From NCBI GenBank assembly GCA_015660995.1, contig JACTUC010000010.1:1-61436 (forward strand): 61,436 nt of DNA, in the 5' to 3' direction. The DNA is from Candidatus Methanomethylicaceae archaeon (GTDB lineage: Archaea > Thermoproteota > Methanomethylicia > Methanomethylicales > Methanomethylicaceae). Shown in pieces: positions 22,701 through 31,026 of this stretch. Within the stretch, counting starts at the first letter, position 1. Every line of letters starts with the position of its first letter. A program made the translations under genes and the position numbers. Below the pieces are notes generated by a model. The model had not been told where the DNA came from, made no database searches, and saw nothing but the letters and a program-made list of their open reading frames with translations.

Positions 22701-23018
22701 TCAAAGGAGCGAGTAAATGAAGAGGCCGAAGTAGAGGAGGACAAGGCTCATTATCACTGCCAGCTCGATCCTTACGCCCTTGGAGAGGGAGATCGACGGC
22801 TTGATCCCAACTCCTGCTTTAACCTCAGCATAGCAGTGGATGCAGCGGAGGTTGCAGCTCGAGGTGAGTTTGATCCAGAGGGAGTCTAGCTTGGGTGGGG
22901 CTATCTCTTTTGCTTGATATTGCCCGCAATCTGATCCTTGGACAGTCAAAAAGACACAAGAACATTCTGGAGTGGTCTCTACCGCATTGAGATGCTGGCG
23001 ACTTTTTCCATAATCCAA
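22701..23018 (-). CDS. truncated radical SAM N-terminus joined to a C-terminal TM helix
   Basis: A 105-residue frame. Its middle, PPKLDSLWIKLTSSCNLRC, closely matches the radical SAM entry of the upstream enzyme at 25545-26825 (PPKLDFIWCEVTARCNLKC), including the whole CNLRCIHCYAE cluster-binding motif. Homology stops there. The rest is a short linker and one hydrophobic helix (IELAVIMSLVLLYFGLFIY) to the stop. Three or four further cysteines lie in the N-terminal 45 residues. Its 5' end overlaps the end of the ATPase gene by 40 nt. It may be a deletion remnant of a second maturase or a small membrane-anchored Fe-S protein. Confidence 0.5.
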   Translation of the reverse strand: MDYGKSRQHLNAVETTPECSCVFLTVQGSDCGQYQAKEIAPPKLDSLWIKLTSSCNLRCIHCYAEVKAGVGIKPSISLSKGVRIELAVIMSLVLLYFGLFIYSLL

Positions 23019-25537
23019 TTCTCTTGGCTTGAATTGCCCATTCTTTTGTAGAGCTCTGCCGCCTTTAGATATTGCTCAATGGCCTTCGCCTTTGATCCCT
23101 GCTTGCCCAGGTACTCAGCATACCAGCCCCTGGCGATAGCTCCGTACAAAACCCCATAGTTTCCCCTGCTCAGCAGCTCGATCCCGTACTCGAACATCCT
23201 GTTCGATCGTGGCCAATCTCCCTGGTCAGCAAAGATCTCCCCCCTTACGATTTCTATGAATCCCCTGCTGAATGTATGGACATCCCACTCATCGGTCTTG
23301 GAGTTACTAATGGTCTTGAGGCATTCGCTCTCGATCTTATCTTCCCTTCCTGATCGCTTCAGTGCATGAATCATAAGCGTACAGGCGGTGATTCTATTAT
23401 ACCCTGATTCTACCCTCTTGCTCAATTCTAAGGCCTTGAGTGCCTCGTCAAACATCCCATTGAAATTGCTTCTGATGTCAAATATTAATACTCTTAAGAG
23501 ATGGCACGTGAACAGAAAGCCATATTCACCCACCTTTGTTGCCATCTCCGAAGTCCTATCGAAGCAAGCTAACCCCTCTTCGAGATCCCCCCTATGGAAG
23601 TGCTTCATTCCTTGGGTGAAGGTGATATCTATGTCTGCACTCACGCTTGGATTCATGCTGTTTATGATCTTGGCTTTTTCGAGCATCGTGGAGGCATTAT
23701 CCACAAGACCCTGACTTAGGTAGCATGCCGCATGGTTCGTATATTCGGTTGCAAGCTTGCTTGAAGCATTGGCCTCCTCAAACAACTTCTCAGCCTCAAA
23801 AGAGAGGTGGCTCGATTCCTCGAATCGCCCCTCGAGATAATTGAGTTCTCCATGAAAGCTTATGATCTCAGCTCTCTCAATCGGTTCGATATCACTGCAC
23901 CTCTCAGCCTCTGCCAAAAGCTCCCTCGCCTTCGAAGAGTTCCCCTTACCTAGACCATATGGTGCCCAGCACAAGGCCGACTTGCGCAGGATCCTCGCGC
24001 TGCTCTGTTGTCCTTCGGCTTCGCTGAGGCATGCATTATAGAAATTAATAGCCGTAGCAGCGTTGTATAGCCCCCGATATGCATCCCCAAGTCCCTCCAA
24101 TGCTTGGAGCCTCTCTTTCTGTTTGGAAGAGTCCGCTTTTGCCGTCTCCAAAGCTCTCTCGAAATAGGGAACTGCCTCGATCATCGCAAGCCTCCTCAGA
24201 CACGCTTCCCCTGCCATTAAAGAATATTTCATGCACTTGTCGGTGACATTGGAGTTGTAGAAATGAAAGGAGAGCTCGCCCAGCACACTATCATTGGGTA
24301 GCATGCTTTCCAAGGTGTTACCAATGACCCTATGCAGTTCCTTTCGTCTTGGAACTGAAATCTGCTCGTAGGTTACCCGCCTCAAGAGCTCGTGGTCGAA
24401 CCTAAAATCATCATCTGAAGGGACCACCAGCTGGTGGCTCCTGTCCAACCTATCTAAGACCTCCAATGTCTCCAACCGTTCGAGCCTGAGGACGTCCGAG
24501 ACTACGCCTGCGCCAAAATAGGTTCCTATGGCCGAGGCGCATTCAAGAACCCTCTTCTCGTCCCTAGAGAGCCTCTCAATCCTTCGAAGTATGACCTCCT
24601 TTACCGTGGGTGGGATATCCAACTCTCCTCCGTCCTTCAGTACCCAGATCCCATCCTTTGGAACAATTGAGTTTGCATCGCTAAGGTACCTGAGTATCTC
24701 TCCCGCGAAAAGCGGATTTCCCCCGCTCTCAGAGGCAATTCTTTGGGTGATGGTGCTGTCTGCAGGCATCCCCAGCATGCCTTCAATCGCCCCTTTAATC
24801 TCCTCAGGCTTCAGAGAGGTCAGCGCTATCTCCTTGCAGATGCCCTCCCGCCTCATGATCCTGATATTCTCAAGAAGGGGATGGATGCCCCCCGTGATGG
24901 CATTGACCATCTCCTCCGTTCTATAGGTGCCGACCATAAGTACTCTCAGTCCTGTGGAATTGCGCGCAAAGAAATGAACCATCTGGATGCTGGCCGAGTC
25001 TGCCCATTGCAGGTCTTCGATCCTCAACAGAAGAGGCTGTTTAGCGGAGATCCTCTTCAGGAGATCGAGCATGGAGAATAGGGTTCTCTCAGACTCGGTC
25101 TTAGGGTCTGTTATGCTCTTGTAATCCACGGAGAGCGAATATTCCTTATAGATCGAAGCAGAAGCCCTGAGGTAAGGCCCAATCATTGGCGTTGCCGCAA
25201 CAATATCTGGCGCAGCCTTCCTGATAGTCGTGATCAGCCTGGAGCCGCTCTTCGAGTCGGTGCTCCCCTCATCGGTTACTCTCTTGAACGCATCAAGGAA
25301 GGGGAAGTATGGAGTCGGAGTGCCAGGCACACACCTCCCAACCATAACTGTGAAGCTTCGCCCGACGGCCTCCTTCTCAAATTCCTCTGCTAGACGGGTC
25401 TTGCCAATACCCGCTTCACCAGAGATGAGAACAAGCACACCTCTTCCAGAAACTGCCTCCTCGGAATATCCTCTCAGCTTCCTCAAGGCGTCCTCTCGGC
25501 CCACCATTGGTGATATGAGCAAAGTCCGCGTCCTCAA
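22979..25537 (-). CDS. STAND/AAA ATPase with TPR repeats
   Basis: Signal-transduction-type ATPase, 852 aa. MVGREDALRKL opens the AAA_16-like module. Walker A is SGEAGIGKTR (about residue 40), and Walker B plus sensor is RIEDLQWADSASI (about 170), as in MalT/LAL regulators and class III cyclase-associated ATPases. After a winged-helix-like spacer (about 320-420), the C-terminal 400 residues are tetratricopeptide-like helical pairs. No LuxR-type HTH or cyclase domain is visible, so the output is unclear. It begins 7 nt after the radical SAM gene ends, indicating one operon. A sensor or regulator of the peptide pathway is a reasonable inference. Confidence 0.8.
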   Translation of the reverse strand: MRTRTLLISPMVGREDALRKLRGYSEEAVSGRGVLVLISGEAGIGKTRLAEEFEKEAVGRSFTVMVGRCVPGTPTPYFPFLDAFKRVTDEGSTDSKSGSRLITTIRKAAPDIVAATPMIGPYLRASASIYKEYSLSVDYKSITDPKTESERTLFSMLDLLKRISAKQPLLLRIEDLQWADSASIQMVHFFARNSTGLRVLMVGTYRTEEMVNAITGGIHPLLENIRIMRREGICKEIALTSLKPEEIKGAIEGMLGMPADSTITQRIASESGGNPLFAGEILRYLSDANSIVPKDGIWVLKDGGELDIPPTVKEVILRRIERLSRDEKRVLECASAIGTYFGAGVVSDVLRLERLETLEVLDRLDRSHQLVVPSDDDFRFDHELLRRVTYEQISVPRRKELHRVIGNTLESMLPNDSVLGELSFHFYNSNVTDKCMKYSLMAGEACLRRLAMIEAVPYFERALETAKADSSKQKERLQALEGLGDAYRGLYNAATAINFYNACLSEAEGQQSSARILRKSALCWAPYGLGKGNSSKARELLAEAERCSDIEPIERAEIISFHGELNYLEGRFEESSHLSFEAEKLFEEANASSKLATEYTNHAACYLSQGLVDNASTMLEKAKIINSMNPSVSADIDITFTQGMKHFHRGDLEEGLACFDRTSEMATKVGEYGFLFTCHLLRVLIFDIRSNFNGMFDEALKALELSKRVESGYNRITACTLMIHALKRSGREDKIESECLKTISNSKTDEWDVHTFSRGFIEIVRGEIFADQGDWPRSNRMFEYGIELLSRGNYGVLYGAIARGWYAEYLGKQGSKAKAIEQYLKAAELYKRMGNSSQENWIMEKVASISMR

Positions 25538-26887: not shown

Positions 26888-27109
26888 TTAATGGGTCCTT
26901 GGAGTACACAGAGCCTTCGCAACTGGTGCCCCAAGAGTTAATGGCAATTCACCCTGGAATGAATACTTTTCACCCTTAACAACTACTGTGCCTTCTATGT
27001 GGATCATCGGCGGGCTTACTTCTTTAGCTTCGGGTTTAGGTTTGACATGGGGTACGGGAGGAAAACACGTTGAGTCCAATGATATTTTTGGCTTTTCTTT
27101 CTTTGACAT
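26888..27109 (-). CDS. putative RiPP precursor peptide 1
   Basis: A 73-residue protein 62 nt upstream of the radical SAM maturase. The N-terminus MSKKEKPKISLDSTCFPP shares its first eight residues with precursor 2. Between lies a Pro/Lys-rich spacer and a small beta-like stretch (HIEGTVVVKGEKYSFQGEL). The tail LGAPVAKALCTPRTH carries the CTP motif also found at the end of precursor 2. A GGTGA stands 6 nt before the ATG. The position next to an RRE-bearing maturase, the shared leader and the cysteine-containing C-terminus are the grounds for calling it a precursor; no family is recognised. Confidence 0.6.
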   Translation of the reverse strand: MSKKEKPKISLDSTCFPPVPHVKPKPEAKEVSPPMIHIEGTVVVKGEKYSFQGELPLTLGAPVAKALCTPRTH

Positions 27110-27190
27110 TTTTTCACCGTTTATCTATTTTATTGAATTAGTTAATTAGAGTAATGTTTTTTTTTAGAATAGTTGATAAAAAAATAACCG
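27086..27190 (-). repeat. duplicated 5' region and leader, copy 1
   Basis: About 105 bp covering the AT-rich promoter/leader and first eight codons of precursor 1. It is repeated at 27470-27574 in the same orientation, 384 bp away, with roughly 85 percent identity by eye. Shared blocks include TCTAATTAACTAATT, a run of nine or ten A residues, and a TTTTTTTATC element. Duplication of promoter plus leader with divergent core is typical of RiPP precursor families. A TATA-like AATAAAATAG lies about 25 nt upstream of the ATG. Confidence 0.65.
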
Positions 27191-27391
27191 TCGTTCCCAA
27201 TTCATCTATTTTCTTATCAAGCATTCATTTAGTCTTTCCAGATGCTTCGTGCGAAAGAGCTATCCAACATGAAAATGACGGACGTTATATTCTTACTCAA
27301 AATAAGCAGATGCTCTTGAATAGCAAAACACAAACTCGCCTAGCAAAGTAGCTGGCCGGGATGAACGCAAGGGCCTTTGTCTTTGATTTGC

Positions 27392-27493
27392 CTATGTGCG
27401 AACTGGAGTACACGCAGGTGCACAACGTGGTTTAGTACCTGTTTTTTTCTTTGGAATCACTTTTTTGACTTTCGGCTTTTCCTTCTTAGACAT
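27392..27493 (-). CDS. putative RiPP precursor peptide 2
   Basis: A 33-residue peptide starting MSKKEKPKVKKVIPKKK and ending CAPACTPVRT. The first eight residues are identical to precursor 1. The CTP near the C-terminus is conserved even in DNA (TGTACTCCA in both). Lysine-rich leader, two cysteines four apart in the tail, and no hydrophobic segment. It has its own copy of the duplicated 5' region and lies between the flavodoxin gene and precursor 1. It is short, but the paired leader, tail and promoter similarity make chance unlikely. Confidence 0.6.
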   Translation of the reverse strand: MSKKEKPKVKKVIPKKKTGTKPRCAPACTPVRT

Positions 27494-27574
27494 TTATTTC
27501 GCCATTTGGCTATTCTATTAAATTAGTTAATTAGAGTTATGTTTTTTTTTGGAATAATCGATAAAAAAAGAACT
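27470..27574 (-). repeat. duplicated 5' region and leader, copy 2
   Basis: Second copy of the precursor 5' region, here upstream of precursor 2 and immediately downstream of the flavodoxin stop codon. It shares TCTAATTAACTAATT, the poly-A block and the first codons with copy 1. The ribosome-binding element is weaker (GGCGA in place of GGTGA), which may make the two peptides differ in yield. Confidence 0.62.
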
Positions 27575-29168: not shown

Positions 29169-29239
29169 ACTCAATGCACCTCAGAAGGCGATTACCTTTT
29201 AAGCTAGGCGACAATTTCCCACAGAAGGCGCAACAGGAA

Positions 29240-30181
29240 ATGCCATCAGTTGAAACAGTTAATCTGTCAAAAAGATACGGCTCCTTCACAGCCGTTTCAG
29301 ATTTAAATCTTAAAATTGAGGGAGCGAAGTGCGTAGGTTTTCTTGGACCCAACGGTGCGGGAAAGACAACCACCTTAAAAATGTTGACCGATTTAATCAT
29401 ACCATCATCGGGAGAGGCATTAATCAATGGCGTTAACGTGCACGCCCAGAAGAAAAAAGCCTTAGCATCTGTTAGCGCACTCATTGAGGCCCCTGAAATT
29501 TATGCGTCACTTACCCCCCGAGAAGCATTGACGATGATCGCGGAAATCCGAGGTGTGCCCAGTGAAGAGCGAAAGAAACAGGTGGAAGACGCTGTCGCCG
29601 AGGTGCGCATGGAAGAATGGATTGACAAGCGCGTGGGCAAGTTTTCGAAAGGCATGAAGCAGAGAATCTGCGTTGCCTCGGCGTTGCTCGGCAACCCTAC
29701 GATTGTCTTCTTGGATGAGCCCACAATGGGACTTGATCCCCGAGGCATGAGCGAAGTTCGCGAAATCATAAAATCGCTCAGGGGTAAAGACAGGCTCATC
29801 TTCATGAGCTCCCATATTCTCAGCGAGGTTTCCGATGTCTGCGATGAAGTCGCCATGATAAACCATGGCAAACTAATCGTTTATGACACTCTACCCAACG
29901 TTACTGCAAAGTTCTCAGGCGTAAACAACGTTGTTGAAGTTGGGCTGGCGCATTCAATCGATAGTAAAATCGTAACCCAAACCATTGCAGCTTTGCCAGG
30001 CGTGGTTAGTGCAGAAAAAGTTGATGATAAAAACCTGAAGATAAGCTTCAGCGGGGGTTTAGATGTGCAAGAACGTCTGCTCAATGACATAGTCAATTTG
30101 AATATTGGTGTAATCAGCTACAAAGCTGCGTCATCTGAACTTGAAGAGGCGTATCTCAAACTCATAACAGCTACGTTGTGA
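29240..30181 (+). CDS. ABC transporter ATP-binding protein
   Basis: Export ABC ATPase, 313 aa from the start at 29240 (MPSVETVNLSKRYGS). Walker A is GPNGAGKTT, the signature is FSKGMKQRICVAS (K replacing the second G of LSGGQ, common in this subfamily), Walker B is IVFLDEPTMGLDP, and the switch is MSSHILSE. Reading is open from 29174, but those extra 22 residues precede the expected transcription start. It partners with the overlapping permease and lies divergent from the RiPP-like cluster, so it could export the mature peptide or confer immunity. Confidence 0.88.
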   Translation: MPSVETVNLSKRYGSFTAVSDLNLKIEGAKCVGFLGPNGAGKTTTLKMLTDLIIPSSGEALINGVNVHAQKKKALASVSALIEAPEIYASLTPREALTMIAEIRGVPSEERKKQVEDAVAEVRMEEWIDKRVGKFSKGMKQRICVASALLGNPTIVFLDEPTMGLDPRGMSEVREIIKSLRGKDRLIFMSSHILSEVSDVCDEVAMINHGKLIVYDTLPNVTAKFSGVNNVVEVGLAHSIDSKIVTQTIAALPGVVSAEKVDDKNLKISFSGGLDVQERLLNDIVNLNIGVISYKAASSELEEAYLKLITATL

Positions 30182-31026
30182 TAAACATGGCCCAAACAGA
30201 CTTTGAATCAAAAAATAAAGTTCCCAGCAGTATGGCCCAAGTGGGTACAATCACGAAGTACGCCCTACTCGACTACGTAAGGTCCCGCAGGTTCTTCATA
30301 ATGCTGACCATAGCCCTATTGATAAGCGCACTTCTCACTATCCTTGTCGGATACTACCGTCCAGAAAGCTTTCTCTCGTCTGAACTTACATTCTACAATA
30401 GGTGGTGGGGAACTTCCGTCACCTTTGTGGTTGTGCTTTCAGGAATTTTCTTCGGCGGTGACGCAATATCAAGTGAATTCCAAAACAAAACAGGCTACTT
30501 CGGCGTTCCAAACCCCATCAGACGGTCATCCATATACGTGGGGAAATGGTTAGCCGCCTTCATAGCATCCACTGTCATACTGGTCATATTCACGGCAATC
30601 ACGGTAGGTAACGGCTTTTACTACTTCTCAGGTGTGCCCTATGAATTCGTCGAGTCTCTGTTGTTCGCCCTGTTCTATCTGGTTGCGGTTCTTGGATTCA
30701 CGTTCTTCTTCAGCTCGTTGTTTAAGAGCAGTTCCATATCCATCCTCGTTACAGCTATACTCTTCCTCTTCGCCTTCACACTGATTCAGGAACTAGTAGC
30801 AGACCTTGTTCAAATTGAACCTTGGTTCATAATCACCTACGGCGCGCAAATAGTAGGAAACGTTCTAACATCGCCTTACCCACAACACCAAATCACAACT
30901 ACAGTAGCTCGATTTACATTCACCTCATTCAATGCTACAATACCCGAAGGCCTCGCAATCCTGGGCATATACTTCATAGTTACAGCAGTCTTGGGACTGA
31001 TACTCTTCGAGAGAAAAGAATTCTAA
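30178..31026 (+). CDS. ABC-2 type permease
   Basis: Six-helix ABC-2 permease, 282 aa, overlapping the ATPase stop by 4 nt (GTG start; the ATG at 30187 is an alternative). The N-terminal cytoplasmic segment precedes YALLDYVRSRRFFIMLTIAL, the usual entry to TM1. GGDAISSEFQNKTGYFGVPNP corresponds to the conserved EFQ/KTLG-type coupling loop of Nod/YhaP-like permeases. It ends in FERKEF just inside the membrane. A strong hairpin terminator follows. Confidence 0.86.
   Translation: MINMAQTDFESKNKVPSSMAQVGTITKYALLDYVRSRRFFIMLTIALLISALLTILVGYYRPESFLSSELTFYNRWWGTSVTFVVVLSGIFFGGDAISSEFQNKTGYFGVPNPIRRSSIYVGKWLAAFIASTVILVIFTAITVGNGFYYFSGVPYEFVESLLFALFYLVAVLGFTFFFSSLFKSSSISILVTAILFLFAFTLIQELVADLVQIEPWFIITYGAQIVGNVLTSPYPQHQITTTVARFTFTSFNATIPEGLAILGIYFIVTAVLGLILFERKEF

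Follow-up and report, generated by a model that had tools for sequence, protein, structure and literature searches.

How is a pair of very small genes with a common start, lying directly beside a radical SAM enzyme in an archaeal genome, to be understood, and is this enzyme likely to act on their products? The window, that is the whole stretch of 61,436 nucleotides analysed here, belongs to a genome of 1.63 Mb in 28 contigs that encodes McrA, and its host, taken for an archaeon in the initial annotation of the bare sequence, is indeed a methanogen or a related archaeon. Because methanol-methyltransferase-like genes, by our reading of the sequence, also occur within the window, this host is in all likelihood a methylotrophic methanogen. 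The features at the center of the question, all on the minus strand, are:

27494..27573, minus strand: duplicated 5' region of pepA, a promoter/5' UTR candidate (a sigma-70 scan is uninformative for an archaeon)
27493-27392, minus strand: pepA, ORF call, putative precursor of 33 amino acids, MSKKEKPKVKKVIPKKKTGTKPRCAPACTPVRT
27109..27188, minus strand: duplicated 5' region of pepB
27109-26888, minus strand: pepB, ORF call, putative precursor of 73 amino acids, MSKKEKPKISLDSTCFPPVPHVKPKPEAKEVSPPMIHIEGTVVVKGEKYSFQGELPLTLGAPVAKALCTPRTH
26825-25545, minus strand: putative maturase of 426 amino acids with an N-terminal PqqD-like RRE, a radical SAM domain (CNLKCVHC) and a SPASM domain (Pfam, PDB sequence, AlphaFold2, Foldseek)

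The two ORFs lie exactly where the initial annotation had put genes of 33 and 73 codons with a common MSKKEKPK start and CTP-containing ends. PepA consists of a lysine-rich leader (MSKKEKPK...) and a core ending in RCAPACTPVRT, while pepB begins with the same leader, which the two peptides share with no amino acid changes, and then carries a CFP near residue 15, a long middle devoid of C-x-P that pepA lacks, and a CTP at the C-terminus, so that the cores of the two differ. Every cysteine of the pair (4/4; two of two in each peptide) sits in a C-x-P unit, namely CAP and CTP in pepA and CFP and CTP in pepB. The enzyme gene follows the end of pepB after 62 nt, and pepA is located just upstream. 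We hold it to be highly probable that pepA and pepB are RiPP-type precursors, bound and modified at Cys-x-Pro by the RRE-radical SAM enzyme, and that they are members of a wider Cys-x-Pro family; leader binding, catalysis and the product of the archaeal locus are what we infer from sequence.

The PqqD-like RRE and the radical SAM/SPASM regions noticed in the enzyme at the outset all score above their Pfam cut-offs (PqqD-like, E=8e-8; Radical_SAM, 1e-23; SPASM, 2e-7). The RRE, the CxxxCxxC radical SAM motif and the SPASM cysteines are all present, the last being conserved in the alignment of homologues. AlphaFold2 predicted for the N-terminus a beta-beta-beta-beta-alpha-alpha-alpha arrangement typical of RREs, within a model of modest confidence (pLDDT 67.9) that is poor in the SPASM part. 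The top Foldseek matches of this model are SkfB, a sactipeptide maturase, SuiB, which forms a C-C bond, and CteB, the SCIFF/ranthipeptide enzyme; the solved structures nearest to the archaeal enzyme are all RiPP maturases. SkfB (sporulation killing factor, PDB 6efn) likewise combines an N-terminal RRE, a radical SAM core and a C-terminal auxiliary cluster domain, and is the top PDB match both by sequence (E=9.5e-17, RRE included) and by fold (E=3e-14). However, the identity in the fold alignment is about 22%, no match comes near the curated cut-off of the SkfB family, and the precursors here are of the C-x-P kind. SuiB (streptide) and CteB (SCIFF ranthipeptide), at Foldseek ranks 2-9, share the RRE-radical SAM-SPASM architecture but have substrates that differ from those found here, and as their chemistries also differ from each other the fold match is silent on the bond made by the archaeal enzyme.

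Single-sequence searches recovered no orthologue of the enzyme from 397 other genomes of the phylum, from 101 relatives, from the family, order or class, or from the genome_contigs and viral_contigs sets; as it was not found in the 397 genomes, selection on pepA and pepB cannot be read from close relatives. Radical SAM proteins of 500 amino acids in genus g3 (L009-L011), of which two have a TetR-like gene as their neighbor, were considered as orthologues and rejected as being of a different type. Relatives came from a starting alignment of bacterial plasmid matches followed by a profile-guided scan of species genomes; the distribution given here is drawn from the matches listed and is a lower bound. 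Among these matches, three full-length homologues aligning across the RRE at 32-34% identity occur in Pelosinus (L020), Sporomusa ovata (L021) and a Marinilabiliaceae MAG (L022). Directly downstream of each there is a small ORF whose cysteines all lie in C-x-P (11/11, 10/10 and 5/5, respectively); the Sporomusa precursor is 92 amino acids long. In the order of Sporomusa ovata the enzyme is present in 27 of 28 genomes; a search through 393 genomes of the order of the Marinilabiliaceae MAG turned up no further member. Of the 27 main-type loci (those from the scan of the Sporomusa order together with the ones of Sporomusa ovata and Pelosinus), 22 have in their vicinity a peptide containing at least five C-x-P units. 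The five lacking a clear peptide are L132, L141 (where a fragment is present), L143, L155 and L156, the last being truncated at a contig end. In 21 precursors from main-type loci 296 of 301 cysteines fall in C-x-P, and most of these precursors have a leader resembling KYKxPKWExPEMxEWD. The middle residue of the unit takes at least 16 identities in the main-type precursors, leaving Cys and Pro as its only two near-invariant positions.

The initial annotation had proposed a RiPP with a Cys- or Pro-containing C-terminal core beside an RRE-radical SAM enzyme, and both the nearest structures (SkfB, SuiB and CteB) and the pairing of relatives with C-x-P peptides bear this out. Its expectation of similar small genes next to homologous maturases holds if C-x-P is taken as the feature and fails for MSKKEKPK, a leader with no counterpart outside the host genome among the sequences searched. 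The CTP tail, singled out before any relative was known, turns out to be one case of the more general family motif C-x-P. Neither a curated model nor a paper on such a Cys-x-Pro peptide/radical SAM family was found in the model and open literature libraries searched, and the consulted section of a systematic radical SAM-SPASM survey highlights motifs other than C-x-P (PMC9062424); the Cys-x-Pro RiPP family is apparently undescribed.

The alternative that fares best is that this is a known sactipeptide or ranthipeptide pathway, with the cysteine sulphur bonded to the alpha-, beta- or gamma-carbon of another residue and C-x-P being the sequence preference of one branch. We rate this as a serious possibility somewhat short of an even chance: the cores are rich in cysteine and the best solved relatives include SkfB and CteB, but SuiB, a C-C bond former, is equally close in fold, and no curated sactipeptide or ranthipeptide model reaches its cut-off. 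The AlbA/StsB-type sactipeptide models fail on the enzyme (NF045574, 96.7 bits versus 625; NF012164, 86.8 versus 850; TIGR04403, 64.6 versus 300). Moreover, proline stands at position +2 of nearly every core cysteine, a pattern that goes unmentioned in the consulted passages of a review, where the word "proline" does not occur (PMC8326336). The C-terminal SPASM region of the archaeal enzyme also matches the Grasp-with-SPASM maturase model TIGR04193 (E=6.5e-22; 2.7e-30 for the Sporomusa homologue), but its 78.4 bits lie under the cut-off of 175 and no ATP-grasp partner was recognized on reading the ORFs around pepA and pepB. We know of no C-x-P motif in Grasp-with-SPASM systems.

Two further arrangements of radical SAM enzymes with C-x-P segments were recovered. 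1) Three divergent RRE-type loci of Sporomusa-order genomes (L157-L159; wider views L160-L162) carry tandem precursors, up to eight, upstream of the divergent RRE-radical SAM gene. The leaders of these precursors end in ...VEKLTDEKLDKVSGG, with a terminal VSGG; the leader residues are invariant, the cores are variable and contain C-x-P, and 17 GG-leader precursors show the invariant pattern, with 72 of 81 core cysteines in C-x-P. Their leaders resemble those of double-glycine-leader RiPPs, unlike the MSKKEKPK leader of pepA and pepB, which has a different sequence and no GG. As these loci have a textbook RiPP layout, they furnish the strongest support for regarding the family, and so the archaeal locus, as RiPP-like. 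2) RRE-less radical SAM enzymes (L012-L014, L023-L028, L100, L121, L123, L125), encoded in Actinomycetota, Pseudomonadota, Acidobacteriota, a Deltaproteobacteria MAG and a prophage contig and including the Dyella and Microvirga types, lack the CxxCxxxxxCxxC part of SPASM and have a C-x-P-rich tail in place of this second half of the domain; L026 contains near-identical PCDPDLVPV repeats. This fusion recalls the layout of borosins, backbone N-methyltransferases in which the precursor is fused to the modifying enzyme, but here the enzyme is a radical SAM protein and self-modification is a conjecture. In Streptomyces anulatus (L123 3933-5063) a gene for a protein-L-isoaspartate O-methyltransferase directly follows the fused radical SAM gene, and in Embleya (L125, downstream of 3990) a methyltransferase-like ORF does so; these are possible second modifying enzymes. 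A related radical SAM protein of a Mycobacterium abscessus prophage (L124 2071-2862) ends without a C-x-P tail.

Among the matches listed, a C-x-P peptide or tail was found at all 12 family loci (3 separate, 9 fused) versus 1 of 70 control loci, the latter being other radical SAM loci from the same genome scan. The one control locus that shows this (L063) has a C-x-P tail and family-like motifs, by which it looks like a family member. In a tree of the radical SAM core a branch (93/86) sets the C-x-P-linked enzymes and the archaeal enzyme apart from the controls, which group with each other in 97% of bootstraps; the fused forms constitute a clade (97/97). The archaeal enzyme is a deep branch of this tree, with core identities of at most 40%. 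The enzyme of a Photobacterium toruni plasmid (L122 3608-5841), preceded just upstream by a 33-residue ORF ending in SCAPGDCNPVN and encoded in a run of two consecutive radical SAM genes, has a very long branch, and its placement is unsure. The best explanation for these observations is a wider Cys-x-Pro family with three layouts: an RRE enzyme with a separate peptide, an RRE enzyme with tandem GG-type leader precursors, and an RRE-less enzyme with a fused tail.

The C-x-P segments might instead be metal- or cluster-binding polypeptides, or structural ones of the spore or envelope, with the enzyme serving normal physiology rather than the making of a secreted natural product. The near-universal presence of the enzyme in the Sporomusa order speaks for this, as do housekeeping genes such as clpX/clpP/tig alongside the Sporomusa-order loci read, where no dedicated exporters were seen, long repeats such as CWPRQQQ, and the replacement of the CxxCxxxxxCxxC part of SPASM by the RRE-less tail. 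On the other hand, GG-leader tandem precursors with hypervariable cores resemble secreted peptides, and pepA and pepB are short and have few cysteines; on balance we think this rather unlikely.

Are pepA and pepB genuine substrates at all? The common 5' DNA of about 80 bp reported initially is a direct repeat (27109-27188 versus 27494-27573) of 80 nt with 85% identity, which extends to 103 nt and 86% (E=1e-27) when the leader codons are included and has no third copy in the genome. Just before the ATG of pepB a GGTGA (GGCGA in pepA) resembles, on reading the sequence, an archaeal Shine-Dalgarno site. The 8 common leader codons differ by 3 synonymous and 0 nonsynonymous changes, and the genes diverge after codon 8, in keeping with the cores having been called unrelated. 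Because the leader codons differ only synonymously, the peptide leader appears to have been kept and not just the DNA, which suggests a constraint beyond the DNA alone, albeit from the small sample of 8 codons; the duplication would agree with a leader that was copied and then constrained as protein, the cores being free to change. Among the 245 window ORFs of 25-110 amino acids with at least two cysteines, all cysteines lie in C-x-P in 3, including pepA and pepB, each of which taken singly reaches only weak significance (shuffle p about 0.02); as the C-x-P criterion was defined after the relatives had been seen, these counts, like those for the family and control loci, describe strength and are no pre-registered test. 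A comparison of pepB with plasmids gave chance matches only. Codon-usage scores are negative for both genes, unlike those of the long neighbor genes, so that their coding status rests on comparative evidence and not on composition. These scores, a leader that is not conserved elsewhere and the AT-richness of the duplicated 5' region would agree with unrelated small proteins or non-coding duplicated DNA, yet both ORFs bear C-x-P, an independent mark of the enzyme's relatives, and with the purely synonymous leader differences this makes such a reading improbable. A viperin-like antiviral role of the enzyme can practically be dismissed, since the weak PADLOC viperin matches are limited to the generic radical SAM core, viperins have no RRE and SPASM domains while the enzyme has both, and its matches to RiPP maturases are better in sequence as well as in fold.

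If pepA and pepB are precursors, the RRE of the enzyme would hold their MSKKEKPK leader, a 5'-deoxyadenosyl radical would abstract a hydrogen from the C-x-P unit or its immediate vicinity, and the cysteine sulphur would then close a bond, possibly while bound to an auxiliary cluster. Binding of the cysteine sulphur to an auxiliary cluster has been proposed for sactisynthases (PMC8326336). Given that only Cys and Pro are near-invariant, with at least 16 different residues at the position between them, the most likely chemistry, though unproven, is a thioether or another bond centered on Cys and/or Pro; with x being nearly free, the cysteine would probably react with the proline or with a backbone carbon. 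The fused tail of the RRE-less enzymes may be self-modified, or its cysteines might act as cluster ligands, which is conceivable in proteins devoid of the CxxCxxxxxCxxC part of SPASM. More tentatively, and with the odds slightly against it, Cys-x-Pro peptides could constitute a new RiPP class with its own Cys/Pro crosslink and three layouts (separate, tandem GG-leader and self-modifying fused), near-universal in one bacterial order with a conserved physiological role there; a methanogenic archaeon would then have acquired them and would make a version with two peptides.

The minus-strand gene order pepA, pepB, RRE-radical SAM-SPASM enzyme continues with the first two features below, and the other three are found on the far side of pepA:

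22979..25537, minus strand: AAA_16 STAND-type NTPase with TPRs, starting 7 nt past the stop codon of the enzyme
22701..23018, minus strand: truncated radical SAM remnant PPKLDSLWIKLTSSCNLRCIHCYAE with a transmembrane-like tail, weak radical SAM matches
28056-27589: flavodoxin
28895-28164: CPBP (Rce1-like) membrane protease-like gene
29174-31026, plus strand: ABC transporter, divergent ATPase/permease pair beside the flavodoxin

The STAND-type NTPase is a possible regulator or sensor; it was not seen beside those Cys-x-Pro family members that were examined, and its top NCBIfam match is the TOMM system kinase/cyclase (E=2.8e-41, under the cut-off). The radical SAM start segment PPKLDSLWIKLTSSCNLRCIHCYAE of the 22701-23018 ORF is 52% identical to the enzyme over 29 amino acids, and this ORF is probably what decay has left of another such maturase. 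By position alone, the flavodoxin, the CPBP protease-like gene and the ABC transporter are plausible helpers. The protease and the ABC pair could serve in processing or export, position being the sole evidence, and no protease or exporter in the surroundings was shown to be dedicated to the archaeal locus. The flavodoxin, tried as a cluster-specific reductant, is not claimable for the cluster because copies 55-62% identical to it occur, out of synteny, in relatives that lack the enzyme.

What began as a two-gene archaeal oddity becomes a testable family of radical SAM enzymes with substrates readable from a simple motif, and the association of C-x-P peptides with these enzymes in many bacteria suggests that modified peptides of this family are widespread. 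The family spans culturable bacteria (Sporomusa and Pelosinus relatives) and a methanogen, and its occurrence in nearly all genomes of the Sporomusa order hints at a basic function there and not an accessory one. In the fused form, a radical SAM enzyme would modify itself with no need of a leader or an RRE, which would be useful for working out the chemistry.
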